A stretch of DNA of 23,045 bases, taken from the IMG/VR virus record IMGVR_UViG_3300021356_000181, positions 1-23,045 of that record. One strand, given 5' to 3'. The translations under genes were made by a program, and so were the position numbers. This document shows, piece by piece, positions 3,460 through 22,621 of this stretch; position 1 is the first letter of the stretch; each line of letters starts with the position of its first letter. The notes beneath the pieces are model-generated. The model had not been told where the DNA came from, ran no database searches, and saw only the letters and a program-made list of their open reading frames with translations. This DNA comes from a virus.

Positions 3460-4431
3460 ATGGCTTTATCACAAGGCTCTCGTTCGCAGTTGGCATTCGG
3501 TGTTCAATCCGACTTTACAACTACGGCAACATCATTCACCAACCTACCATTCACTACGCACTCCCTTAACTTAACTAAGGATCGTGTAGCTGGTACAGAT
3601 ATTAATTCCCACCGTATGCCGACAGTTGATCGTCACGGCAACCGTACAGTATCAGGAGATATTGTAGCTGATCTTCGTCACGCAGAGTTTGATGAGTTGA
3701 TCCAAGCTGCTCTTATGTCAGATAATGACTTTGCTACAGGTTACACTGCAGGGGATGGCACAACAGTAACCAATGCTGCAATCATAGGTACAACGCCTAC
3801 CTTTCTTACCCTTGAAGATTATGCTGCTGACATTGACCAAGCAAGACTCTTTACGGGTTGTACAGTAAACACAATGGCAGTTTCTATGGCTCCTAACCAG
3901 ATGGTAACAGCTACCTTTGGTATAGTAGGTCGTGATATGTCTATATCAGCAACACAGAAAAGCACTACAGCTTCTGCAGGTGCAGCACCTTTTGATGCCT
4001 ATTCTGGTGATATTAAATTAGGCAACAAGGGAACACTTGGTTCAGCTTTGACTATTATCACTGCTCTTGACTTCACCCTGACTAACAGCTTTGCTCCAAC
4101 CCTTGTTATTGGAGAAAGCACTGCAGGTGATATGGAATTTGGAACTGCATCTTTGGAAGGTAGTGTATCTTGCTACTTTGAAGATGCTACGATGATCAAC
4201 CGTTTCCTCAACGAAACTGAATCAGCACTTGAAGTTTCTGTAGGTGATGGCTCTAATACGCTGACATTCCGTATGCCTCGTATTAAGATTAACTCTGCTG
4301 ATGTGGGAGTAGATGGCCCAACTTCACGGATCGTGAATATGTCCTTTACAGCCCTTCGTGATGACACCAGCCTTTCTGGAAGCAGCACAGACACAAACAC
4401 CATGTTCTATGTAACGAAATCTGGTGCATAA
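3460..4431 (+). CDS. Major tail tube protein
   Basis: A 323-residue protein starting MALSQGSRSQLAFGVQSDF, with HSLNLTKDRVAGTDINSHRM and the segment DIVADLRHAEFDELIQAAL. These are typical of the large (about 300 residue) siphophage tail tube family, in which an early beta strand is followed by '.v.Gd...el....fd.ll.aal'. The rest is Thr-, Ser- and Gly-rich beta sheet. Rings of this protein stack to form the tail tube. TAGGAGA before the ATG is a strong ribosome binding site, fitting a high-copy product. The gene is followed by an 82-base gap with hairpins, unlike the overlapping neighbours. Confidence 0.88.
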   Translation: MALSQGSRSQLAFGVQSDFTTTATSFTNLPFTTHSLNLTKDRVAGTDINSHRMPTVDRHGNRTVSGDIVADLRHAEFDELIQAALMSDNDFATGYTAGDGTTVTNAAIIGTTPTFLTLEDYAADIDQARLFTGCTVNTMAVSMAPNQMVTATFGIVGRDMSISATQKSTTASAGAAPFDAYSGDIKLGNKGTLGSALTIITALDFTLTNSFAPTLVIGESTAGDMEFGTASLEGSVSCYFEDATMINRFLNETESALEVSVGDGSNTLTFRMPRIKINSADVGVDGPTSRIVNMSFTALRDDTSLSGSSTDTNTMFYVTKSGA

Positions 4432-4513
4432 GAATCCTAGCTAGGATGAGGGGGGTGGTTGTCGGGTGCTGCTCCCCTCGCTTTAAAACCCGACTAGCCC
4501 GAAAGGAAACCCA
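4432..4513 (+). promoter_or_regulatory. Hairpin-rich gap after the major tail gene
   Basis: This is the longest clear gap in the structural block. It holds a perfect 14-base palindrome (ATCCTAGCTAGGAT, 4434-4447), a 7-bp stem GTCGGGT/ACCCGAC (4461-4467 with 4488-4494) and a competing 6-bp stem GAGGGG/CCCCTC (4448-4453 with 4474-4479) whose downstream arm lies in the loop of the 7-bp stem. No U-tract follows, so it is not a standard intrinsic terminator. It may stabilise the 3' end of the abundant tail-tube message or reduce readthrough into the low-copy chaperone gene. AAAGGA (4502-4507) is the ribosome binding site for the next gene. Confidence 0.5.
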
Positions 4514-4912
4514 ATGGACTTGAAAGACCTGACACCGACAAGTGATACTGTGGATGTGAACATTGTGCATCCTACGACACTAGAACCATTACTGAATGAT
4601 AATTCAGACCCAATGGTAATTACTATGTATGCTCCACATTCTAAGGAGTATAAGGCTGCAGTACATGAGCAGACGAACAAGCGTCTAAAGCAAGCGCAGT
4701 CAAAGAAGAAGGTAGATTTAACTGCTGAAGATATAGAAGACGCCACTCTTGATTTATTTGCCAAGACAACAAAATCTTGGAATATCACATACGATGGTGA
4801 AGAGCCAAATTTCTCTGTGAGTAAAGCAAAAGAGATTTATAGCGAAGTCTTCTGGATTAGAGACCAGATTGACGAAGCGGTGAGTAACTCTTTAAATTTC
4901 AAGAAGGCTTGA
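4514..4912 (+). CDS. Tail assembly chaperone, short form (lambda gpG-like)
   Basis: A 132-residue acidic/helical protein between the tail tube and tape measure genes, the classical position of gpG. Such proteins coat the tape measure protein and recruit tail-tube subunits and are absent from the finished virion. Residues 30-60 are strand-rich with a charged helix (EYKAAVHEQTNKRLKQAQ), and the C-terminal half (SKAKEIYSEVFWIRDQIDEA) resembles the end of many gpG-type chaperones. Near its end it carries an in-frame T TTA AAT slippery heptamer. Ribosomes slipping there make the longer form with the next reading frame. Termination in the normal frame occurs at TGA 4910-4912. Confidence 0.8.
   Translation: MDLKDLTPTSDTVDVNIVHPTTLEPLLNDNSDPMVITMYAPHSKEYKAAVHEQTNKRLKQAQSKKKVDLTAEDIEDATLDLFAKTTKSWNITYDGEEPNFSVSKAKEIYSEVFWIRDQIDEAVSNSLNFKKA
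4891..4897 (+). promoter_or_regulatory. -1 programmed ribosomal frameshift site (TTTAAAT)
   Basis: The heptamer fits X XXY YYZ and is in the correct register: zero-frame codons are TTA (4892-4894) and AAT (4895-4897). The -1 frame is blocked by TAA at 4885-4887 just upstream, and the zero frame ends at 4910-4912, so the shift must occur in a window of about 24 bases that contains this heptamer. A Shine-Dalgarno-like GGTGAG (4879-4884) lies six bases upstream and could stimulate slipping. I did not find a convincing downstream stem. Confidence 0.8.
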
Positions 4913-5250
4913 TTGAAGAGCTTCTCGACTTTGCAGAACATGAGTTCTCCATCAGTAAGCCCGACAAAAGCGGGATATCAGAACGTGAACACTTAGAACA
5001 AGTAGAAAGGCAGACTGGACGTAGACCAAAGGGATTGGATGGACCTGATTTTCCCACTTTGTTGTCTCACATCTGGTCTGCCTTTGTTGCATTAAGCAGT
5101 GGCAGAACTATGGGTTTCTCTGGCCCTAACCCGATTACCTACGAACAAATAAAAGCATGGAAGGAACTTACGAATACACCATTGTCTTCTTGGGAAGTAG
5201 AGGCAATAAAACGTGTGGACGTAATTTACATGGGTAGTTTTAATGGCTGA
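4897..5250 (+). CDS. Tail assembly chaperone, frameshift extension (lambda gpT-like)
   Basis: Read in the -1 frame after the slippery site, this continues the chaperone as FQEGLIEELLDFAEHEFSIS for 117 residues to TGA at 5248-5250. The fused gpG-T-like protein would be 245 residues. The segment contains LDGPDFPTLLSHIWSAFVAL and ITYEQIKAWKELTNTPLSSW, a pattern seen in phage GPT/DUF1799-like tail chaperone domains. A TTG at 4909 could in theory start it alone, but no ribosome binding site precedes it and the frame opens only at 4888, so frameshifting is much more likely. It overlaps the tape measure start by eight bases. Confidence 0.75.
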   Translation, partial: FQEGLIEELLDFAEHEFSISKPDKSGISEREHLEQVERQTGRRPKGLDGPDFPTLLSHIWSAFVALSSGRTMGFSGPNPITYEQIKAWKELTNTPLSSWEVEAIKRVDVIYMGSFNG

Positions 5251-7555
5251 TCTTGCAGATATTCGCATAGGTATTGATGTTGAAACAGGGGATGTCGCTA
5301 GGGCTGTACAAATGTTTGAGTCCTTCAAGCGCAAAACTGCCCAATTAAAGTTGGAATTAAATAAGGGTAATATAACTAAAAAAGCATATAATCGCTCTAT
5401 TCAGCAAATGGGAGCGCAGCTTGGTAAAGTAACAGGCAATACCAATCAAGCTAAAAGCGCCATGATGAAGTATAGGCTTGCGATAGAAAATGCAACTGAT
5501 GAACAACTTAAGTTTACTACAGCTTCTGGTAAAGGTATGCGTAGGATGGAGATCCTCGCACAACAAGCTGGTTATCAGATTGGAGACCTTGCTGTACAAA
5601 TTCAATCTGGAACTAATGCTGCTGTTGCTCTAGGTCAACAAGGCTCACAGTTGCTAGGCTTTTTTGGTCCTACAGGGGCTATTGCTGGTGCTGTTTTAGC
5701 TATCGGTACTGGTTTAATTGCTCCGTTCCTAAAAGCTAAAGATACAATTAAGGACACCACAAAAGAAATTGAATCTTTACGGTTACAAATCGACCTAATT
5801 AAGTTTGGTTTCAAAGATGAAAAGTCCTTTCAACTTACTATAGACATAGAAACAGCAAGGAAAAAGATAGACGAGTTTAAAGCCAATATTTCAAAATTAA
5901 AGTTGGTCCCAAGCGATACTTCCGCTGTTCAAGTGGTGAAGTATTTAGAAGCCATAGAATATCAAGAAGGTCTTATAAAATCCGCTATGGATGAGCTTAA
6001 AGTAAGAGCTGATCTTACGACAGAGTATATGATCCAAGAAGATAAACTCAAAAAACTTGAATCTTCACATAACGATTTAACCTCTGCTGCTAACGCTTAC
6101 TCTAAGGCTAACGAGGAAATTTCAGAAGAAAGGGCTAAAGAACTTGACCTACTATCAAAAATAGCTAATACAAACCCTAGAATAAAAAAAGAGCAAGATG
6201 CTCTGGTTTCTTCTGCTAAGGCTTACTCTTTAATTAATGGTCAAATATTACAAGAAAAAGTTGAAGAACTTGAGTTATTATCAAGGATAGCTAATACAAA
6301 CCCTAAGATAAGAAAAGAGCAAGATGCCTTAGTTTCTGCTGCTAAGGCTTACTCTTTAATTAATGGTCAAATATTATTAGAGAAGGCTGAGGAGCTTGAG
6401 TTATACGAGAGGCAATTTGCTAAACAAGACACAATAAATGAACTATTGCATTCTGAGTTAAAGTATGGTAAAGACAGCGCAAGATATAAAACACTACAAA
6501 ATAGTTTACAGGATCAGCAATTAAAAAAAGAAATTGAATTATTAAAACTAAGTGATACTCAGAAAAAGATATTGGTGTCACTAGTAAATGAGCAACGAAG
6601 GCTACTTGATCAATTAGATGAAGAAGAAGAAAAAAGAAAAAGGATAGCTGACTTAATAATACCCCCCGCCCTTGCAGCTAAAGGGGCTGGTTATGCGGCT
6701 TTAAGTGGTGAATTGGCATTAAGGCAAGCCACAGGTTTGGGTGTAGTAGAGGACAAGACGGATAAAAAGACTAAAGCTAAAGAATCTATGGCTTCCATAA
6801 TAAAAGGTATGGAAGAACAAGCTAACCTTCAAAGAAAATTAGTAGGTTTATCTGATCAAGAAGCTGATTACTTACGGGTACTATATAACCTAAAAGAACA
6901 AAATAAAACTGCCTCTGGAAAAATGACTGAGGCTGAACTTATACGGTCAGCAGAAAGAATAGCCGCCATAAACGCAGAAACAGCCGCTATGGAAGCGCAA
7001 ATGCAAAAGATACAAGATGTGGCTGATAGCTTTGAAACTCATTTCGGTGACGCCCTAATGGGTATTGTAACTGACTTCGATTTCCTAAATGACTCTATTG
7101 AAGACTTTGGATATAATGCAGAACAAGTCTTCAAGAATATGGCAAGGGAAATCATAAAAGAGCTTTATCGTATCTTTGTTGTTAAGAAGATCACAGGATT
7201 TATCTCTAGTGCTATAACTGGCACTTACAACGATCTAGGTAATGTAGGCAAGGGGGCTTATCTGCCCTCTGGTGATGGCGGTGGATACACAGGTAGTGGC
7301 CCTCGCTCTGGTGGACTAGATGGTAAGGGTGGTTTCCTAGCTATGTTGCACCCTAAAGAGACTGTAATAGATCACACTAAAGGTCAGTCTGCAGAGGGTG
7401 TTACTGTCGTACAGAACATCAATATTTCTACTGGCGTACAACAAACAGTTCGTAATGAGATAAGAACTTTGATGCCACAAATAGCTAATAGCGCCAAGGC
7501 AGCAGTGTCTGACGCTAAGAGGCGTGGTGGATCATATGGAAGGGCATTGTCGTAA
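5243..7555 (+). CDS. Tape measure protein
   Basis: A 770-residue protein that sets tail length and is ejected with DNA. The N-terminal part (residues 1-135) is helical. Residues 138-163 (FFGPTGAIAGAVLAIGTGLI) are a hydrophobic membrane-like segment typical of tape measure proteins. A long coiled-coil region follows, rich in Lys, Glu and Leu, including three tandem 42-residue units (276-401). The C-terminal region has the phage tape measure signature AREIIKELYRIFVVKKITGF followed by a Gly-rich linker and GGFLAMLHPKETVIDH. At roughly 0.15 nm per residue (family rule) it predicts a tail near 115 nm. The final residues overlap the next gene as TAATG. AT-rich codon use is stronger in the coiled-coil part. 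Confidence 0.93.
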   Translation: MADLADIRIGIDVETGDVARAVQMFESFKRKTAQLKLELNKGNITKKAYNRSIQQMGAQLGKVTGNTNQAKSAMMKYRLAIENATDEQLKFTTASGKGMRRMEILAQQAGYQIGDLAVQIQSGTNAAVALGQQGSQLLGFFGPTGAIAGAVLAIGTGLIAPFLKAKDTIKDTTKEIESLRLQIDLIKFGFKDEKSFQLTIDIETARKKIDEFKANISKLKLVPSDTSAVQVVKYLEAIEYQEGLIKSAMDELKVRADLTTEYMIQEDKLKKLESSHNDLTSAANAYSKANEEISEERAKELDLLSKIANTNPRIKKEQDALVSSAKAYSLINGQILQEKVEELELLSRIANTNPKIRKEQDALVSAAKAYSLINGQILLEKAEELELYERQFAKQDTINELLHSELKYGKDSARYKTLQNSLQDQQLKKEIELLKLSDTQKKILVSLVNEQRRLLDQLDEEEEKRKRIADLIIPPALAAKGAGYAALSGELALRQATGLGVVEDKTDKKTKAKESMASIIKGMEEQANLQRKLVGLSDQEADYLRVLYNLKEQNKTASGKMTEAELIRSAERIAAINAETAAMEAQMQKIQDVADSFETHFGDALMGIVTDFDFLNDSIEDFGYNAEQVFKNMAREIIKELYRIFVVKKITGFISSAITGTYNDLGNVGKGAYLPSGDGGGYTGSGPRSGGLDGKGGFLAMLHPKETVIDHTKGQSAEGVTVVQNINISTGVQQTVRNEIRTLMPQIANSAKAAVSDAKRRGGSYGRALS
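6068..6445 (+). repeat. Three tandem 126-bp (42-residue) repeats in the tape measure gene
   Basis: Units run 6068-6193, 6194-6319 and 6320-6445 (residues 276-317, 318-359, 360-401). The clearest shared DNA word, GCTAATACAAACCCT, recurs at 6164 and 6290, exactly 126 bases apart. Units 2 and 3 share QDAL.S.AKAYSLINGQIL at protein level. Unit 1 is more diverged (AANAYSKANEEIS) and the end of unit 3 has decayed. The sharper DNA match between later units suggests a recent in-frame duplication. Confidence 0.85.
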
Positions 7556-15027: not shown

Positions 15028-15502
15028 GTTTTACCTCGTATTTTGCATGTTCTTGTATAAAATCTAAGGGGAGAATGGTCATAAGGTCGCCTCTGTTTGG
15101 TCGGGTATGCAACCCCCACTCTCCCCTAAAGTAATCCACACACTTGTCTCTGACAATGTTTATAATGGTCTCTGGGTTTACAAGGTAAAAGAAGTCCTCT
15201 GCCTTAACTGCAATATACCTTGCTATGTCATTTGGTACACCCCAACCATCTACCGATTTCCACTCTGGGGGTCTTTTAACAGTTCTGAGTTCCCACCAGA
15301 TTGTGTTGTCAACAGGCCCATGCCTGTACTTTCTCTTTGCAGCTTTTACGTCAACATGACCAAACTCTTTGTCTAGTATGTCCCAATGCTCAAAGATATT
15401 CTCCTCTTTTGTTGCTTTACGGATGAAGTTATCCCCCCGTAGGGAGATAAACTCTTGTTCTGCTGCAGTGCCTTCATAAACTGATTTTGCGTTTTTTCTC
15501 AT
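15020..15502 (-). CDS. Putative PD-(D/E)XK-type nuclease-like protein
   Basis: A 160-residue protein I cannot assign to a named family. It has Glu15 in an early helix (TAAEQEFISLRGDNF), then HWDILDKEFGHVDVKAAKRK giving Asp41, Asp51 and Lys53. An early Glu followed by D-x9-D-x-K is the spacing of a PD-(D/E)XK nuclease core. IWWELRTVKRPPEWKSVDGW follows, with a further Glu71. A phage nuclease could be used in recombination or host DNA breakdown. Against this, the protein is described only by motif spacing. It starts within the ribonucleotide reductase stop (ATGA). Confidence 0.65.
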   Translation of the reverse strand: MRKNAKSVYEGTAAEQEFISLRGDNFIRKATKEENIFEHWDILDKEFGHVDVKAAKRKYRHGPVDNTIWWELRTVKRPPEWKSVDGWGVPNDIARYIAVKAEDFFYLVNPETIINIVRDKCVDYFRGEWGLHTRPNRGDLMTILPLDFIQEHAKYEVKHV

Positions 15503-17397
15503 GTGATGTCTACAATCTCACATACGTCACCAGAACAGGCCATTGTTTGCATACTCACTGTGTTGTCCTCTTGCTCATAGTCGGATAGTTTAGACCAATC
15601 AATCTTCTTTGGCATAATTGATAGTAGCATTTCATAGTCTGATTTACCACACTCTTGGTAGGGTGCTTGTTGATAAGAGTGGTCAGTGTGTGGCAAGAAC
15701 GACACACCAGACATTTCATCAAAGTGTTCATACACAAATGCCCCTACAGCCATCCATTCAGAATCACGTACTGATATTGTCACGCTGGGTTTATGCTCGC
15801 ACCAATGTCTCTGGTAGATTAACCACATTTCTAGCTGTTCAATAGCGGTCATGTCGTTACGTGTAATTGCACCATTTGGTGATTTCATAGGGAAGCTAAA
15901 CACTGTTGTTGTATCACCTTTAAACACACAGGGTTCATGTGGGATCTTTTGATCCTTCATAAATTGTGTCAGTGGGTCTTTATTATCCCCGCGTACAGTA
16001 CGGATATAATATGGAGAATGACGAGCATGGATGCCACTTGCGGAGTCAACCAACTGCGAGACTGTTCCTGATGGTTTAACGCAGCTAATCGCAGCAGAGG
16101 GCGGTATGTCAAGACGACTAGCCCATTCAGCATTAGTAGAGATAGCGACATTTCTAAGACGCTCCAAAGTTTTGTCCAGACCTTTATTCTTTGTGGTCAA
16201 AAGACGGTTATCCATTATGCCTGTGAGTGACACACCAAGCAGACGCTCTTCTTCTGTGTTTCGCTGCCACACCTTTCGCAGATAGGGGAAGTGTGTATAA
16301 GAGCTTTGGATGGTGCCAAGGATCGTAGCAATCTTAACTTTTCTCTCAAGGTCTTCCACATTGTCTGTAGAACGTACCACACACTCTGTAAGGTTGCAGA
16401 ATTGATACGGACGCAATATGATTTCGCTGCAGGGATTGGTTCCGAAATCATAGTTAGGATCACGTCTTTCATTCTTTGCAGCTTGCTTCTTAGATGCTTC
16501 ACGGTTGAATACTCCACGTTCACCTGACTTACTTTCCACTAGGGCGGTCCACTCACGCATGAATGTTTCCATGTCTGGACGCTCAGTATATGCAACACTA
16601 TTGTTAGCCAAGGCACGATGCGCTGCAGTTTCCCACCATTGACCTGACTTAGCATGACGCATACGGTCATCTGATAGGTTGGATAGACTAATCATTGCTG
16701 ACCTACGTACACCACCTACAACAACAATCTGACCAATGAAGCACATAAGGTCGTGACATTCAACACTAGATAGCTTACGTCCCTTTGCGTTCTTGAATGT
16801 CTGTACAGTGAAGTTGAATAGTTCAACTAAGGGCGCTGGGCCTGACGCTCTACCACCAAAAGTCTTAAGCCTTGCCCCTGCAGGACGAACCTTAGATACA
16901 TCCCATCTTGGAATCTCACCAGCCCAAAGGAGTGCCAAAAGTTGCCTAAATGCTTTAGCCCAACCTTCCTTGCTATCTCTGACTACGATGACAGTCTCAC
17001 TATCGAACAACTCAGGTATCTCAGGGAGTTTGGATATGTATTGTCTTTCGACACTGAACCCGACACCAGTACCACAGAGGAGAATGAACATAGCTTCATC
17101 GAAGGACTTAGGGTCATCTACGGGTAGATAGCTACAGTTATAACCTGCTGTATTGTCACGCTCTAAGGCTGGACCTGCAGTCATCATTGCCCTCATAGAA
17201 GGCATAACCTCAAGGTTTAGGATGGCGTCACGTATACTGTTGACATATGAGTCATCACCTATCTTGGGGCGAACAACATTATCCATGTAGCGTTCTACAG
17301 TCTCTGACCAGTCTTCACGTCCCTTGCCATCAAAATATTTAGCATAACGTGACTTAGCAATAAATGTCTGATAATCTGTTGGTAGATAGTTATTCAT
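15499..17397 (-). CDS. nrdJ: Class II (B12-dependent) ribonucleoside-triphosphate reductase
   Basis: A 632-residue monomeric-type class II reductase that makes dNTPs from NTPs using adenosylcobalamin. NPCSEI at 321-326 supplies radical Cys323 and Glu325 (NPCGEI in the Lactobacillus leichmannii enzyme, Cys408/Glu410). The redox pair is Cys88 (GYNCSYLPVDD) and Cys334 (FCNLTE), and Cys334 is 11 residues after Cys323, as Cys419 follows Cys408. The C-terminus ACSGDVCEIVDIT has the CX4C shuttle (Cys621/Cys626; Cys731/Cys736 in the model). It is about 100 residues shorter than that 739-residue enzyme, half the deficit lying between Cys88 and Cys323. No N-terminal ATP-cone is visible. It is coupled by ATGA overlaps to the MazG-like gene and the downstream gene. 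Confidence 0.93.
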   Translation of the reverse strand: MNNYLPTDYQTFIAKSRYAKYFDGKGREDWSETVERYMDNVVRPKIGDDSYVNSIRDAILNLEVMPSMRAMMTAGPALERDNTAGYNCSYLPVDDPKSFDEAMFILLCGTGVGFSVERQYISKLPEIPELFDSETVIVVRDSKEGWAKAFRQLLALLWAGEIPRWDVSKVRPAGARLKTFGGRASGPAPLVELFNFTVQTFKNAKGRKLSSVECHDLMCFIGQIVVVGGVRRSAMISLSNLSDDRMRHAKSGQWWETAAHRALANNSVAYTERPDMETFMREWTALVESKSGERGVFNREASKKQAAKNERRDPNYDFGTNPCSEIILRPYQFCNLTECVVRSTDNVEDLERKVKIATILGTIQSSYTHFPYLRKVWQRNTEEERLLGVSLTGIMDNRLLTTKNKGLDKTLERLRNVAISTNAEWASRLDIPPSAAISCVKPSGTVSQLVDSASGIHARHSPYYIRTVRGDNKDPLTQFMKDQKIPHEPCVFKGDTTTVFSFPMKSPNGAITRNDMTAIEQLEMWLIYQRHWCEHKPSVTISVRDSEWMAVGAFVYEHFDEMSGVSFLPHTDHSYQQAPYQECGKSDYEMLLSIMPKKIDWSKLSDYEQEDNTVSMQTMACSGDVCEIVDIT

Positions 17398-17741
17398 CTG
17401 TTGTCACCCGATCCATTTAGTTTATTTCGTTGCTTTCTGCTGTTTAGCTTCAGCATGTTTAGGTCCATCACTTTACGTAGGTTTGCATTATGCAGATTAG
17501 CCAATGCCGTAACGTAAAACAGAACATCCCCTAATTCCTGTAATATCTCCTGATGGGAATACGCTGTACTGTCTCTAAATGTCTTCTTGATCTTTTCTGC
17601 AACCTCACCAGCTTCACCCACAAGACCTAAAGTATTCTCTACCAGACGATCCTTACCTTTGGTCATTATCATACTCTCTACAAAGTTTGTGTAGCCCTCA
17701 AGGTCTTCTTGCATATCTCTGATATCTGTTTCGTTAATCAT
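17394..17741 (-). CDS. MazG-like nucleotide pyrophosphohydrolase
   Basis: A 115-residue all-helical protein with LVGEAGEVAEKIKK and HQEILQELGDVLFYVTALA. The two metal-binding pairs are Glu43/Glu46 (ExxE) and Glu69/Asp72 (ExxD), which define the MazG-like fold and coordinate magnesium for cleaving nucleoside triphosphates to monophosphates and pyrophosphate. Phage versions may clean aberrant dNTPs or alter host (p)ppGpp-linked signalling; the sequence does not tell which. It is placed between the methyltransferase and the reductase in a nucleotide metabolism group. GAGG lies before the ATG, and both ends overlap neighbours as ATGA. Confidence 0.9.
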   Translation of the reverse strand: MINETDIRDMQEDLEGYTNFVESMIMTKGKDRLVENTLGLVGEAGEVAEKIKKTFRDSTAYSHQEILQELGDVLFYVTALANLHNANLRKVMDLNMLKLNSRKQRNKLNGSGDNR

Positions 17742-18289
17742 GTTATATCCTCTACAACTCTTCCGTAAAACTCTGTTGGCCCATTTTGTTCAATATCAAA
17801 CAAGTACCAACAACAGTTATCTTTCCCTTGTCCCTTACTATTCTCTATCCACTTTACTCTACCTACGCTGACCACTTTCTTACAGTATGTCATGTAAATA
17901 GAAGACTGCTTTGTGTGCATCCAATCTGCATCAAATAGCAACCAAGTCTTACATGTCTGCATAAATTTTTCTATCAGGGGGTGTAAGATCGTCCTGTCCC
18001 AAGGTGGGTTTGTTATAATGTAGGTTTCTGGGTCATATTGATCAACCTCTAACTGTAGGGCATTTGCAGGTAGAATATCACTTCGTCTCGGTTCTATGTC
18101 GGTAGCAACAAGAAGACTAGCAGCACCGCCTGTAAGTTCGTCTATGTGGTCGATTAATCTTCCATCACCAGCACAGGGTTCTATGTACTCAAACGTGTAA
18201 GGTAAGTGTGGTATAAGAGGCTCTACAGCGGCTATGGGAGTGGGGTAAAAATCCCGTGGCCTTCTCTCATAATTACTACGTTTACCCAT
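17738..18289 (-). CDS. DNA N6-adenine methyltransferase (orphan)
   Basis: A 183-residue protein from ATG 18289, which has AGGAG (18297-18301) seven bases before it. The frame extends to ATG 18316, but that start lacks a ribosome binding site and overlaps the upstream gene. IEPCAGDGRL (residues 36-45) is the AdoMet-binding motif and TNPPW (93-97) the catalytic motif of adenine methyltransferases. RRPRDFYPTP near the N-terminus is a further trait of small phage enzymes of this group. There is no target recognition domain of the usual size and no nearby restriction enzyme, so it is an orphan. It may protect phage DNA or influence expression. Confidence 0.85.
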   Translation of the reverse strand: MGKRSNYERRPRDFYPTPIAAVEPLIPHLPYTFEYIEPCAGDGRLIDHIDELTGGAASLLVATDIEPRRSDILPANALQLEVDQYDPETYIITNPPWDRTILHPLIEKFMQTCKTWLLFDADWMHTKQSSIYMTYCKKVVSVGRVKWIENSKGQGKDNCCWYLFDIEQNGPTEFYGRVVEDIT

Positions 18290-18296
18290 GCCCTTG

Positions 18297-18301
18297 CTCC
18301 T
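18297..18301 (-). promoter_or_regulatory. Ribosome binding site deciding the methyltransferase start
   Basis: AGGAG on the minus strand lies seven bases from ATG 18289. The alternative ATG at 18316 has no comparable site. Confidence 0.6.
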
Positions 18302-18305
18302 GTAA

Positions 18306-18536
18306 TCAAGCATCATACATCCATGAGAGGTCTACTGATTTCACTATTGGCTCAATGCTACTGTCGAAGTGTTTCAAGTCTTTATATGCTGCATTGAAAT
18401 CTGGATAAGGGATGTCCTGTGGCTGACTTACCATCTTGCCCTCATGCTCTACCTTGCAGGTAAGCCACACATGCTCACCATCATCCCAAGGCCCATGTAC
18501 TACACCCCATATCTTAAAGAGTTCTTGTTGTGTCAT
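18306..18536 (-). CDS. Small hypothetical protein
   Basis: A 76-residue protein starting MTQQELFKIWGVVHGPWDDG. The frame is open to 18596, but ATG 18536 overlaps the previous stop as ATGA and is preceded by AAGGGGA, so I prefer it. Aromatic-rich (VWLTCKVEHEG, LSWMYDA), mildly acidic and without a membrane segment. I do not recognise the family. It lies between a nuclease and a methyltransferase gene, so it may act in DNA metabolism, which is only context. Confidence 0.65.
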   Translation of the reverse strand: MTQQELFKIWGVVHGPWDDGEHVWLTCKVEHEGKMVSQPQDIPYPDFNAAYKDLKHFDSSIEPIVKSVDLSWMYDA

Positions 18537-18880
18537 TTCTTTCCCCTTTGTTTCATAAGATGTAGATAGTCTTCCATAGGTACGATTGCAAGCCATTCCT
18601 TACGATCCCCCCGAAAAAATACGACAGGATCGTAAAAACCCTGTCGAGCTTGTTCCATCCAATCATACACTGTCTGTAAGTTCTTACGTCTTTTTACCTC
18701 TATTGTAACTGGTAAATACTTACGTGCCTTTGGACTAAGTTGTATGTCTTCCCCGTTTTGTCCCATAGCTGTAGACCTAACGTCATCTGGCTCAAGGTTG
18801 GGGAAGCGTTTAAGTATAGCGTCCCTAACTTCCTGTTGTCCTAGTCTCCCTTTTGCTTTACTTGAACTGGCGGTTCCCAT
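18533..18880 (-). CDS. PD-(D/E)XK nuclease, resolvase-like
   Basis: A 115-residue protein from ATG 18880, preceded by GAGGAAGG (18887-18894) at six bases; a GTG at 18907 is an alternative. It begins MGTASSSKAKGRLGQQEVRD (Glu17), followed by NGEDIQLSPKARKYLPVTIE with Asp45, Glu61 and Lys63, so an E...D-x15-E-x-K core is visible, plus Gln79 in the next helix. This is the PD-(D/E)XK layout of archaeal Hjc-like resolvases and related phage nucleases. It overlaps the exonuclease end by 40 bases. It could resolve branched DNA in replication or recombination. Confidence 0.75.
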   Translation of the reverse strand: MGTASSSKAKGRLGQQEVRDAILKRFPNLEPDDVRSTAMGQNGEDIQLSPKARKYLPVTIEVKRRKNLQTVYDWMEQARQGFYDPVVFFRGDRKEWLAIVPMEDYLHLMKQRGKK

Positions 18881-19557
18881 ATTTGACCTTCCTCTCTTCT
18901 TAACCACAGGAGCCTTGCGTTCTCTATCACCCTATCTACATCCCCGTCATATGCCTTGACACATTCTTCAAACAACTTTTCCTCTGTGTTGCAATCCTGT
19001 AACATCTTGTTCGCTGTTGCTGGCCCCACTTTATAGAGACCTAAGATGTTATCAGCATTATCACCAGATAAGATTTGAGAGTAAAAGAACTTCAAGCCAT
19101 CGAAGTCAGATACTGTGGTAAGTGTTCCTCTAGTTAAGTTGAAATGTTGACAGGCCAATTGTAGCATGTCTTTGTCGATGGAAGCAACAATACTAGATGG
19201 GCCATATTTCGTTACTGCCTTGCCTATAAGATCATCAGCCTCTTCATTCTCACTTACGATAGCGTCATGTTGATCAACAAGATGGTTTCGTGTAGCAGTG
19301 AGGTGACGAGGCTTTTCTCTTTTGGACCTGTTACCTTTATAGATAGCTGTAGTTGCTAGATCGTATCGAAAGTTCCCCTTGCCAGTAAGAAAAACTTCAT
19401 AGTCATCTTTACCAGCGAAGGGGAGTGCAGTTTCATCTAACACGTATTCGATTAAGGAGTCTACTTTATCTATAGCTTCTTGTTGTGGTTGGTCCTCTGT
19501 GGCGAAGGCTGCTCTGTAGGCGATGATGTCACCATCTATAAGCACCTTGCCAGACAT
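18841..19557 (-). CDS. 5'-3' exonuclease (T7 gp6 / flap endonuclease family)
   Basis: A 238-residue protein. It starts MSGKVLIDGDIIAYRAAFAT with Asp8 and Asp10, followed by NEEADDLIGKAV (Glu105/106, Asp108/109), SIDKDM (Asp128, Asp130) and LSGDNADNILGLYKVGPATA (Asp166, Asp169 and helix-hairpin region 173-186). This is the full acidic set and H3TH motif of the FEN/5'-3' exonuclease family. It would remove RNA primers and degrade host DNA, supplying an activity missing from the phage's DNA polymerase. It overlaps the upstream gene by one base (TGATG). Confidence 0.9.
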   Translation of the reverse strand: MSGKVLIDGDIIAYRAAFATEDQPQQEAIDKVDSLIEYVLDETALPFAGKDDYEVFLTGKGNFRYDLATTAIYKGNRSKREKPRHLTATRNHLVDQHDAIVSENEEADDLIGKAVTKYGPSSIVASIDKDMLQLACQHFNLTRGTLTTVSDFDGLKFFYSQILSGDNADNILGLYKVGPATANKMLQDCNTEEKLFEECVKAYDGDVDRVIENARLLWLRREEGQIWEPPVQVKQKGD

Positions 19558-19757
19558 CAGATGTCACTCCAGACCATCTCTCCATCGTCTTTCTCAAAGG
19601 CTACAGATTTCACATATGTAAATCCTGCTGCTTGAGTTGCCTCAGAGTAAAGCCAAGCTAGATCGTTTAAAGTTTCTACGTCTTCTCTTTCGATACTTGT
19701 TTTGCCCGTGAACCCATCGTCTTTAGATTCTGATTGAAAGGTGATCTGTACTTTCAT
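19557..19757 (-). CDS. Small acidic hypothetical protein
   Basis: A 66-residue acidic protein starting MKVQITFQSESKDDGFTGKT and ending GEMVWSDI. Predicted beta strand, helix (ETLNDLAWLYSEATQAAGF), beta strand. No motif I recognise. It starts one base after the ssDNA-binding-like gene stop with AGGA just upstream and overlaps the exonuclease start, so it belongs to the replication operon. Its role is unknown; a replication or nuclease regulator would be speculation. Confidence 0.65.
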   Translation of the reverse strand: MKVQITFQSESKDDGFTGKTSIEREDVETLNDLAWLYSEATQAAGFTYVKSVAFEKDDGEMVWSDI

Positions 19758-19758
19758 G

Positions 19759-20313
19759 TCATCCTACCATAAACAATTCATCGTCTTCTGAGATTTTATT
19801 CTCAGGCTCATAGGCGACATGCTCAGTAACACCTACATTAAGCAAACGCACACCAGCACCATTTGAGTATGTTTCAAACTGTACCTTCGCTTTCGTGCCA
19901 TTACCCAATGGGCCATCTTCTTCAAAGTTCCAGTATCGACGTGCATCACGTCCTTGTAGAAGGCTGACTACATTTGGCGCACCACCAAAGTCTACCTCTG
20001 TCTCTTCTCCTGTCTTACGATCAGTGAAGGTCTTTACGTCTTTGATTGCACGTTTCAGACGCATAAACTTACCAATACCATATTCTGAGTTACCCTCAAG
20101 AATACGATCATTGTTCATTGGTTTTGGGTCTAAACCTTCTGTAAGCAGTTGGTCAATTTGTGACTGGTCTGTAAAGTATGCGTTGACTGCATACTGACCA
20201 CCCTTCTGATAAATGGCTTGGGCTGCTCTAGGTCCGTCAGGATTACCGAAGTCGGCGTTCTCAGGGAAAACTTTTGCATACTCAAGAACCATGTCCATAG
20301 TGTATTTAGTCAA
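19759..20313 (-). CDS. Putative single-stranded DNA-binding protein
   Basis: A 184-residue protein beginning at TTG 20313: AAGGAG lies seven bases before it, while the next ATG (20298) is 22 bases away. The middle has KFMRLKRAIKDVKTFTDRKT and NVVSLLQGRDARRYWNFEED. LGNGTKAKVQFETYSNGAGV followed by VTEHVAYEPE resembles the OB-fold region of T7 gp2.5 / DUF2815-type ssDNA-binding proteins. The acidic C-terminus ISEDDELFMVG recalls the tails through which such proteins contact polymerase or helicase. Location between polymerase and exonuclease agrees. Direct evidence of binding is lacking. Confidence 0.65.
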   Translation of the reverse strand: MTKYTMDMVLEYAKVFPENADFGNPDGPRAAQAIYQKGGQYAVNAYFTDQSQIDQLLTEGLDPKPMNNDRILEGNSEYGIGKFMRLKRAIKDVKTFTDRKTGEETEVDFGGAPNVVSLLQGRDARRYWNFEEDGPLGNGTKAKVQFETYSNGAGVRLLNVGVTEHVAYEPENKISEDDELFMVG

Positions 20314-20379
20314 GTTGTCTCTCCTTTTTAGAGTCGGTACATATATATACAGGCATTTTTTAAGATTTTATACACAGAA
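20314..20379 (-). promoter_or_regulatory. AT-rich gap upstream of the ssDNA-binding gene, possible weak promoter
   Basis: This is the longest gap in the minus-strand block. Read on the minus strand it contains TATAAAAT and, 15-20 bases on, TATATATAT, either of which could be a -10 element, but no good TTGACA-like -35 is present. It also holds the AAGGAG site. No terminator hairpin is visible after the polymerase stop. Confidence 0.3.
20321..20326 (-). promoter_or_regulatory. Ribosome binding site supporting a TTG start
   Basis: AAGGAG on the minus strand lies seven bases from TTG 20313. It is one of the best Shine-Dalgarno sequences in this block, which makes the unusual start credible. Confidence 0.65.
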
Positions 20380-22233
20380 TCAGTGAATTTCTGCATAATT
20401 TTTTCCGAACTGTGCGTCAATACCTAATTCTACGTTTAGTTTTAGTTTGTCGTTTACTTTGCAAATAGTCTCCTCTAGTCTGTATTTGATTGATTCTACA
20501 TATCTTTCATCTACAAGTGCTATAATTTCATCGTGGAACTGTCCAATGATGTCTAGTCCAAACTCCTGACATTGAGCAACCCAATTATCAAAGCACCAAA
20601 CTCCTGTGCCTTGATTGAGTGTGCTGAACTTGTCTTTATCAGAGCGTAAAGAATACCACATCTTTGATACAGGGTTCTGCACCCACATACCGCCAAGAAC
20701 TTCTCTTACACGTAATTCGCTTGAGACCTTCTCTATTGACCAGTTACGCGACCAAAAGGCATCTAGTAGCTTCTGGGCATCCTTCTTACTCATACCTGTC
20801 TCACGCGCCAGCTTAGGCGCTCCTACGCCATATGTGGCAGAGTAGTTTACCACCTTGTAGTTTTTACGTAGGGCTTTTAGGCTACGTTCACCAGAATTAT
20901 GTTTGTCGATATCGTCTTGTGTAACAACACCAGCATGTTTAGCCAAGTCAAGGTGGGGGTCAAATCCTTCCTTACTCATTTCTGCAACATAATCTGGATC
21001 ATGTGGTTTCATGTAATGGCGCTTTGTTGTATCCTCTAGGGATGTCATATCTGCACCACACAACACATAACCATCAGGCGATGTTAAGCAACTCCTAATC
21101 TCTTTACCAAGTGGTCTATCGACAGAGGGTAAGTTTACCAAAGGTTTCGCGTGTCTAAATCGTAGTGTGTTCGTAAAACCTGCGACAGTGGCCTGTACGT
21201 ATCCGTCACGTTGGGATACCAACATTCCTTTGAGTAAACCAATTCTATGAGTAAGAACAGACAGACCGTCCAAAATAGTAATGCTAGGCTCTTTATCAGC
21301 CAACTCCAAGACACTTTCACAAAGCTCACCGTCCTTTCTTATCTGTGGGATCTTACGTTCACTCCCATCATCCTCTCTAACAAATTTATATGTGCGGGGT
21401 TGCCAACCAAGGTCAAACAGCCACATCTTTACCTGATCAGAAGAGTTAGGATTTCCCTGCTCTCTTCCTACTTCAACAACCATAGACTTGGTGGTGTAGG
21501 GCATACGGTTTGTCTTACACAATTCTATCCACCGCTCACCATGACTAGACAGGCTACCATCCTTCTTGTACATTATCTTTGGCTGCGTTCTCATTGCAGT
21601 CAGGATACGCTCTGGCATGGCTTTAGCCAATGCCTCAGTCTTCTCTTCTTTCTGTTGTTCCCAATCAGCCAGATATCCCTGCGCCCTATCTACGTCTAAT
21701 TTCCACTGCAGGGTCTCTTGCTTTGCAGCACACTTCATCTTGAAGGTCAGATAGTTTATCAGTTCATCTGCTGTTGGACCCTCAGTTTGTTTGTCGCAAT
21801 ACAGCTTGTTTAATTTAATCTCAAGGTCACGCCACAGACGCATGTTGATCTTAACGTCCTCATTGCATCTATGTGCATACTCCTCTTTAGTCAGGTTTTC
21901 CCAATCACTAATCTTTGGCTTTGGTACACCGTAGTCCTCACCATAGCTTTCTAAGCCATGCTTATTACGATGATGGTTGATGTACCATGATAACGCTAAC
22001 GTGTCGATCAGGGTAGCTTTGACCTCTATCCCTAGCACTTTTTCCACTGCGGGGATATCAAACCTCACAATGTTGTGACCGATCAAAACCTTTGCTTCTG
22101 TAAAGAATATACGCATAGCCTCATAGTCATAGGTATGCTGCACATCACCATTATTATCAGCCCAAGACAATACGTGTATCTTGGTGCTGTTTAGTCCATC
22201 TGTTTCTATATCAAATACTGGCATGTTTACCAT
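20380..22233 (-). CDS. polA: DNA polymerase, family A (T7-like)
   Basis: A 617-residue replicative polymerase with proofreading. Exonuclease motifs: DIETDGL (Asp8, Glu10), GHNIVRFDIP (Asp59) and RCNEDVKIN (Asp126). Arg122 stands where many relatives have the exo III Tyr. Polymerase motif A is GADMTSLED (Asp395, Glu400), motif B RKNYKVVNYSATYG (Arg456, Lys460, Tyr464, Tyr468) and motif C FHDEI (567-569). Tyr464 corresponds to E. coli Phe762 and T7 Tyr526. The 5'-3' exonuclease domain is absent, but a separate gene supplies it. The ATG at 22233 overlaps the upstream gene by 23 bases; ATG 22224 is an alternative. Confidence 0.95.
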   Translation of the reverse strand: MVNMPVFDIETDGLNSTKIHVLSWADNNGDVQHTYDYEAMRIFFTEAKVLIGHNIVRFDIPAVEKVLGIEVKATLIDTLALSWYINHHRNKHGLESYGEDYGVPKPKISDWENLTKEEYAHRCNEDVKINMRLWRDLEIKLNKLYCDKQTEGPTADELINYLTFKMKCAAKQETLQWKLDVDRAQGYLADWEQQKEEKTEALAKAMPERILTAMRTQPKIMYKKDGSLSSHGERWIELCKTNRMPYTTKSMVVEVGREQGNPNSSDQVKMWLFDLGWQPRTYKFVREDDGSERKIPQIRKDGELCESVLELADKEPSITILDGLSVLTHRIGLLKGMLVSQRDGYVQATVAGFTNTLRFRHAKPLVNLPSVDRPLGKEIRSCLTSPDGYVLCGADMTSLEDTTKRHYMKPHDPDYVAEMSKEGFDPHLDLAKHAGVVTQDDIDKHNSGERSLKALRKNYKVVNYSATYGVGAPKLARETGMSKKDAQKLLDAFWSRNWSIEKVSSELRVREVLGGMWVQNPVSKMWYSLRSDKDKFSTLNQGTGVWCFDNWVAQCQEFGLDIIGQFHDEIIALVDERYVESIKYRLEETICKVNDKLKLNVELGIDAQFGKNYAEIH

Positions 22234-22621
22234 CTCTTTCTAAGTATCTGATAGCCATTTTTAAGCCATCTATATTATCGCCTAAGTGTCCTATAGATAA
22301 GTTGCAATGATGACAAATCCAACCCCTAAAAGTTTCTTTTTCATAGCAATGATCTAGTACTAGGCGTATATCCGATTTACCACAACATTGACAAGACTCA
22401 GGCACAGGTGGTGCTACTTTTCGTATTCTTGATACAACATCGTTATGGCTTCTCTGACAAGACTTGCAACTTGTACTCCTACAATCTCTATGGTCGCCCG
22501 TAGCCCTTCGATACAACCTGAAAGCAGACTTTGGTTTTTCTATACCACAGTGACGACAGGTGATAGTCTCTTGGCTAGGGTCGTATAAATCCACCCCATC
22601 CTCAAACAGCTCACCCTGCAT
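22211..22621 (-). CDS. Endonuclease VII-like HNH protein
   Basis: A 136-residue protein. The N-terminal part holds a zinc-ribbon-like set TCRHCGIEKP and SCKSCQ (Cys22, Cys25, Cys52, Cys55). The C-terminal part has SCQCCGKSDIRLVLDHCYEK and FRGWICHHCNLSIGHLGDN, which contains Cys77/80, Asp90-His91, Cys103/106, Asn107 and His112. This is the zinc-bound HNH core of T4 endonuclease VII (PF02945-type), common both in recombination nucleases and in free-standing homing endonucleases. It lies between helicase and polymerase. It starts within the helicase stop (TAATG), with GAGGT upstream. Confidence 0.88.
   Translation of the reverse strand: MQGELFEDGVDLYDPSQETITCRHCGIEKPKSAFRLYRRATGDHRDCRSTSCKSCQRSHNDVVSRIRKVAPPVPESCQCCGKSDIRLVLDHCYEKETFRGWICHHCNLSIGHLGDNIDGLKMAIRYLERDGKHASI

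Follow-up and report, generated by a model that had tools for sequence, protein, structure and literature searches.

The phage studied here very probably makes its tail assembly chaperone in two forms, a short one (G) and a long one (GT), the long form arising when ribosomes slip back one base at a position that is conserved among its relatives. The DNA analysed is a virus record of 23,045 bases, the whole of which is called the window below. The case for the frameshift is built on the reading frames, family matches, the conserved position, the T start codons missing in most relatives and synonymous conservation. From these we infer slippage itself, its efficiency, the re-pairing of the tRNAs and a lambda-like role.

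The plus strand of the window carries, in order, head genes, a tail terminator, the tail tube gene, G, T in the -1 frame, the tape measure gene and distal tail genes; all features located below are on this strand unless stated otherwise. ORF and family searches of the window placed two overlapping ORFs between the tail tube gene (3460-4431; Pfam PF18906, Phage_tube_2, E 9.7e-39; phrog_290) and the tape measure protein gene (5243-7555; phrog_24, E 1.7e-12). The first, in the 0 frame (4514-4912, 132 aa), is a G-like tail assembly chaperone ORF (phrog_313, E 5.5e-7), and the second, in the -1 frame (4888-5250), is T-like (Pfam PF23812, Phage_TAC_18, E 6.2e-20). An AlphaFold model of G was obtained with a mean pLDDT of 83. 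In VIA, the model matched 3klu best (Z 4.8), followed by the tail assembly chaperone of HK97, 2ob9 (Z 4.7); both Z scores are middling, and the next match was at 3.0. Foldseek compared the model with 2ob9 at E 0.69, and structures other than these two were regarded as noise. Judged from sequence, G and T are the halves of a tail-chaperone pair of the lambda G/GT type. The G/GT tail assembly chaperones of phage lambda were reportedly described by Xu, Hendrix and Duda in 2004 (cited in PMC3483164 and PMC5313236). The window phage is related to a marine phage of Roseobacter. Genes for ribonucleotide reductase, DNA methyltransferase, DNA polymerase and endonuclease VII lie on the minus strand at 15499-22618.

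An earlier, sequence-only reading of this DNA had proposed a -1 frameshift in the chaperone, and the sequence and coordinates that it described were borne out base for base. From the ATG at 4514, the G frame ends with ...GTG AGT AAC TCT TTA AAT TTC AAG AAG GCT TGA, the stop being at 4910-4912, and the -1 frame is closed upstream by a TAA at 4885-4887. The heptamer that had been singled out, T_TTA_AAT (4891-4897), is indeed in register, and the predicted fusion does have 245 residues (128 + 1 + 116). A second in-register heptamer, A_AAT_TTC (4894-4900), overlaps the first and had been missed; a -1 shift at either would give the identical 245-residue protein, with S-L-N-F-Q-E-G across the junction. 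In the 12 plus-strand ORFs of the window, an in-register XXXYYYZ occurs at 19 of 3747 codon positions (TTTAAAT at two of them). About seven positions are available between the two stops and, therefore, one such heptamer would be found there by chance in a few per cent of cases. The presence of an in-register heptamer in the open interval is suggestive and not decisive alone.

To date, relatives of the locus have come mainly from IMG/VR, which was scanned six times with G proteins or alignments and once with a T alignment, at most the best 80 per scan being taken. These scans were the source of most of the loci L001-L474, and the remainder are named phages. The set used for the slip site began with 457 sequences; the window's own copy (L081), a G-less stretch of CRP-811 (L083) and the distant named phages (L229-L244) were left out. 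Thirty-five of the 457 were dropped, either with T off the contig (29), with no G stop (5) or with G cut (1). Many of the 422 that were kept are the same contig fetched repeatedly, and 203 unique relatives remained, the window included, which form 58 clusters at 90 per cent identity. Since the relatives are phylogenetically linked, the counts given below overstate their independence.

The T match was found in the -1 frame in all 203 unique relatives. Near the end of G, a Phe codon four codons before the stop is preceded by T (N_NNT_TTY) in 192 of them; this position is three bases downstream of T_TTA_AAT and is taken by A_AAT_TTC in the window. The commonest form is G_GAT_TTT (160 relatives), followed by A_AAT_TTC in the window clade (12), G_GGT_TTT (5), A_GCT_TTT (4), A_AAT_TTT and A_AGT_TTT (3 each), T_AAT_TTT (2) and one each of G_GCT_TTT, A_GAT_TTT and A_GTT_TTT. 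On the tree of the 58 clusters, the letters of the heptamer change at least 13 times while a usable site is kept. Synonymous identity at the two slip codons was 0.96 and 0.97 across the 58 clusters, against expected values of 0.50 and 0.54; elsewhere in G, Phe is encoded by TTT 138 times and by TTC 129 times (counted in an earlier set of 108). The remaining 11 relatives are one clade around L377 (among L377-L392), which has GAC TTT at the position and T_TTT_TTG six bases upstream, starting at -22 counted from the G stop. This clade lost the T before TTT, and its slip site appears to have moved. In L013 and L014, both with T_AAT_TTT, a stop of the -1 frame occupies -16 to -14 and the AAT codon is at -15. 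The shift must therefore follow the decoding of AAT, so that no slippery codon other than TTT is left.

Taken together, the relatives indicate that the slip site probably lies at the conserved position, as A_AAT_TTC in the window, and that T_TTA_AAT is probably not the main site. A shift mainly or only at the latter has in its favor that it is a full X_XXY_YYZ heptamer, in register and inside the open interval, and that it recurs at the same place in the distant relative L087. However, conservation of this heptamer, which the earlier reading had suggested as a check, did not emerge: TTTAAAT is present in 13 of the 203 relatives, namely the 12 of the window's own clade and L087, where it too overlaps A_AAT_TTT at the conserved place. 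It is missing from the sister lineage L078 (SH-aLRT 95), which reads GCA AAT TTT, i.e., A_AAT_TTT, and it is the next codon pair that is conserved instead. The frameshift itself is unaffected by this result, and a leading role for T_TTA_AAT is improbable. Slippage of the RNA polymerase instead of the ribosome might also join the two frames, as many relatives have a short T-run at the site, but these runs count only three to five T, whereas runs known to cause polymerase slippage have about eight or more, and their fixed codon phase would suit ribosomes better; this route is scarcely credible. The alternative that the earlier reading had itself named is that T is made separately, with no fusion, by re-initiation at a TTG (4909) overlapping the G stop (TTGA). 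This TTG stands in the -1 frame of the window and could in principle start T, and overlapping stop/start pairs are a common device for translational coupling. Such a start is unlikely to be general, however, as the TTG is present in 18 of the 203 relatives, while in 145 the -1 frame offers no ATG, GTG or TTG from its upstream stop as far as T residue 15 (His in 185). In addition, the AAGAAGG of the window ends one base before the TTG, which is too close for a Shine-Dalgarno sequence, and in CRP-6 (L082, 2938; CRP6_gp44) the annotated T start falls within the conserved part of T. Separate translation is thus rated very unlikely. The start of gp44 is probably misannotated, and the protein should probably be the frameshift product of gp45.

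A GGTGAG resembling a Shine-Dalgarno sequence had also been pointed out in the sequence-only reading. It does lie where described (4879-4884, six bases before T_TTA_AAT), but it is not conserved, being present in 11 of the 203 relatives and, among the cluster representatives, in the window alone; a role as a stimulator is not claimed for it. GAGGAGG is found within 24 nt before the slip site in 80 of the 203, the window not being one of them, and could be explained by IEEA-type coding.

Homologous G or T were found in 17 records of named phages, including CRP-6 (G_GAT_TTT). As in-register heptamers within the open interval, A_AAT_TTT was found in the Acinetobacter phage MD-2021a and in Effie, A_AAT_TTC in phage 438212 and G_GGA_AAG/C in Mannheimia phage 1152AP2 and Pasteurella phage Pm86. 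In-register T-runs are present in the open interval of the Rhizobium phages P106B and X2_24, the Vibrio phages AQKL99 and 1.207.B, and DMU1, K21lambda1 and Almagne, lying 55-109 nt before the G stop in the last three. The homologue in Acinetobacter phage DMU1 is annotated gpG/gpGT. In Tlacuache, no in-register XXXYYYZ was found upstream of the T homology. The T homologue of Curvibacter phage P26059A (L237, 1220) and Limnohabitans phage DC31 (L241, 1214) is in the +1 frame, and both have AAC TTT CGA before the G stop, which is a possible +1 shift site. In Rhizobium phage RHph_X2_24 (L233, 1946-2572), the T ORF is separated from the tape measure gene by what is annotated as a putative homing endonuclease.

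RNA folding was assessed in windows of 27 codons against synonymous resampling. Two minima were found across G and T, at the T start (mean z -2.7) and at T codon 36 (mean z -3.8), while values in G ranged from -0.8 to +0.5. The first minimum corresponds to a structure just 3' of the slip site (SL1), with a mean z of -2.96 and values below -2 in 41 of the 58 clusters. In a stem scan, a long-range stem of at least 6 bp was found in 48 of the 58 clusters, the 5' arm starting 4-12 nt past the heptamer in 42 of these; the arms of SL1 differ between clades. The window has a weak counterpart (4906-4911 with 4956-4961; z -1.2, not significant), and its folding is matched by 23 of 200 resampled sequences. 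The statement of the earlier reading that there is no evident stem thus holds directly 3' of the site in the window, but not for most relatives, and it fails further downstream in the window itself, where a strong stem is found inside T.

This second stem (SL2; 5006-5019 with 5072-5085, 14 bp closing a loop of roughly 50 nt) begins about 105 nt after the slip site and has a z of -4.1, or -3.0 with synonymous resampling. Across clusters its mean z is -3.55, with values below -2 in 52 of the 58, and all 14 positions pair in 154 of the 203 relatives when small offsets of the 3' arm are allowed. Synonymous constraint on the codons of SL2 ranks among the strongest in T. The covariation score exceeded that of all 500 shuffles, but the pair types did not, as 214 of the 500 shuffles reach them, and versions of SL2 that were slid reach as many double-change pairs. 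When five pairs were followed on the tree, 11/87 and 22/76 changed the right way, 23/75 was mixed, and 9/89 and 20/78 were uninformative or against; none was significant. The case for SL2 as a conserved structure leans on synonymous conservation and folding energy, the covariation being mixed. Because only frameshifted ribosomes would translate this stretch, SL2 may shield a poorly translated message or may aid frameshifting at a distance. A covariance model of SL2 was run on the 17 named outside records and matched P26059A (E 3e-4), 1152AP2 (E 0.008), Tlacuache (E 0.011), DC31 (E 0.1) and Almagne (E 0.27), scores that partly reflect protein homology, with folds that differ. A trade-off, in which relatives with a full X_XXY_YYZ heptamer are without SL1, had a rank test p of 0.009 (7 versus 51 clusters). 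It was dropped, as the tree gives it no support: of the independent pairs, two are supported and none agrees with it, whichever pairing is chosen, and L394 and L377 are counterexamples.

Upstream of G, the leader contains a candidate H-type pseudoknot (4447-4494), predicted from base complementarity. Its hairpin (4447-4480) consists of stem A, 4447-4459 with 4468-4480, in which 13 of 13 positions pair, and of the loop TGTCGGGT (4460-4467). Site 1, ACCCGAC (4488-4494), is complementary to the loop bases GTCGGGT (4461-4467) in 7 of 7 pairs. A second possible partner of the loop, site 2 (4509-4515), lies at the G start codon and offers 6 of 7 pairs in the window. The same plan is seen in the relatives: a 13 bp hairpin, an 8-nt loop of the form N-GUCGGG-U and then ACCCGAC or a near copy 4-20 nt on. 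GUCGGG is present in 201 of the 202 sequences with enough upstream DNA, L039 being without it, and 12 or 13 of the 13 positions of stem A pair in 187 of the 201 when the best copy of the motif is used. In the alignment of the 58 clusters, which has 35 distinct rows, stem A cells are paired in 91 per cent of cases, against 67.6 per cent after shuffling. Double changes occur in 12 of the 13 pairs, which gives the first stem compensatory support, and the covariation score is 0.727, compared with 0.269 for shuffled columns (standard deviation 0.023) and 0.24 or less when the partner is slid by 1-3 columns. A complement or near copy at site 1 was found in 57 of the 58 clusters; the loop hardly varies and, therefore, covariation cannot show this pairing. 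Directly abutting the pseudoknot stem in the window is a perfect hairpin, P0 (ATCCT[AGCT]AGGAT, 4434-4447). A perfect hairpin of at least 4 bp within 40 nt upstream of stem A was found in 56 of the 58 clusters, with differing arms, this being a raw count. P0 is of the CCT-AGCT-AGG type with a 4-nt loop, and one form among the relatives has a GCAA loop.

Pairing of the loop with the G start was compared with that at other starts, with G-U pairs allowed and, for either set, the best-scoring of seven offsets used. The heptamer at the G start pairs in 7 of 7 positions in 43 of the 58 clusters and in 6 of 7 in 11 more, whereas among 187 other ATG starts, taken from mechanical ORFs of at least 100 aa, none reached 7 of 7 and 17 reached 6 of 7. 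When viral contigs were searched for the loop and site 1 only, at least 116 matches were found in newly fetched loci, 113 of them with the stem. A G homologue follows just downstream in 112 of these 113, the exception ending at a contig edge, and the element is thus tied to G in what was scanned. A pattern scan of genome contigs gave at least 120 matches; in none of those listed did the stem reach 11 of its 13 pairs, and one was unscorable, which is taken as background. A separate, earlier scan of genomes for T relatives yielded none. No covariance-model match was found in Rfam at E up to 1 for the window (4400-5400) or for L013, L075, L335 and L463. Among 18 named leaders tested, the pseudoknot was found in two, the window and CRP-6, and was not found in the other 16. 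The possibility that the tail tube protein extends through the leader was set aside, as stop codons crowd the leader on inspection.

One view of the leader element is that it acts as a transcription attenuator or as a stabilizer of the mRNA 3' end between the abundant tube message and that of the chaperone. Stem A is GC-rich and directly follows the tube gene, and short T-runs come after it in several relatives. However, a terminator scan, which used a simple consensus only, gave nothing at stem A in the window, and a terminator would not need a near-invariant loop that is complementary to the G start in 43 of the 58 clusters; we consider this view somewhat unlikely. Instead, the loop GUCGGGU may pair either with ACCCGAC, which would leave the start accessible, or with the CYCGA box where G starts, which would shut it, and this pairing would adjust the amount of G that is translated, a protein, a host factor or kinetics perhaps deciding between the two. 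It is tentatively proposed that the chaperone message is an RNA-controlled dosing cassette, in which the leader sets G and the slip site with its stems sets the GT fraction, and that the leader belongs to a new chaperone-specific RNA family. The leader of T4 gene 32 also contains a pseudoknot. The likeness is one of placement, both being upstream of the ribosome binding site of a phage gene; unlike in gene 32, the loop here is complementary to a further site, at the start codon, and the element is not known to be bound by a protein.

In the frameshift model, most ribosomes would translate G and terminate at 4910. A minority would slip back one base at the conserved Phe position (A_AAT_TTC, 4894-4900, in the window) and enter T, which would give the 245-residue G-T fusion. 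During the slip, tRNA-Asn would re-pair from AAT to AAA and tRNA-Phe from TTC to TTT. Slippage at T_TTA_AAT, a codon further upstream, may contribute in the clade of the window. GT would be made at a low ratio to G and, as in lambda, G may act on the tape measure while GT recruits the tube protein. In-register X_XXY_YYZ heptamers in the overlap, A_AAT_TTC and T_TTA_AAT, are present in the window, and the near-canonical G_GAT_TTT is present in most relatives. Against the model, G_GAT_TTT, the commonest heptamer, is not a full X_XXY_YYZ and its P-site re-pairing from GAT to GGA would be poor, and the SL1 stem of most relatives is weak in the window.

Gene order, the -1 frame relation, a slip site near the end of G and the chaperone families are shared with lambda G/GT (PMC5009743). 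Lambda uses a site of the G_GGA_AAG type, whereas the relatives of the window usually have G_GAT_TTT. The window group further differs from lambda in its conserved stems, one 3' of the slip site and one within the gene, and in its leader pseudoknot candidate. G_GAU_UUU is the frameshift site of pea enation mosaic virus (PMC5009743), and it is also reported for a Fusarium virus and other eukaryotic RNA viruses. The heptamer and the -1 direction are identical, but those systems are RNA viruses on eukaryotic ribosomes and this one is a tail gene of a DNA phage, so the likeness is an analogy only. Downstream hairpins are described for pea enation mosaic virus (PMC4737148), as they are found here in the relatives of the window. 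The alternative phage motif 'twoonefour' of PRFect (PMC10885494) would include GGATTTT, judged by its name alone; the PRFect motifs came from inspecting annotated frameshifts, and GGATTTT is absent from the main text.

No report of a GGATTTT frameshift in a phage was found in the open-licence literature, which does not show its absence from print. The reports of GGAUUUU frameshifts among the matches listed in that literature concern, by title, eukaryotic viruses or their hosts, or are a general review. A conserved intergenic pseudoknot motif with phage tail genes was likewise searched for in the open-licence literature, and no report was found. The main text of the papers on CRP-6 and related phages (PMC6918029, PMC8528129) does not contain the words 'frameshift', 'chaperone' or 'pseudoknot'. 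The frameshift is of a known kind, and the leader RNA seems to be new.

Assembly of the lambda tail hinges on the G to GT ratio (PMC5009743), so the setting of this ratio matters for long-tailed phages. CRP-6, the one isolate that matches the phage group, is marine, and its phage type is reported to be ubiquitous in the ocean (PMC6918029). The group appears to use a slip site that, in the literature found, is otherwise met only in eukaryotic RNA viruses. The findings suggest that the annotated T starts in such phages, as in gp44 of CRP-6, are wrong. Should the leader pseudoknot indeed act as a switch of translation, it would represent a new means by which a phage doses a morphogenesis chaperone.
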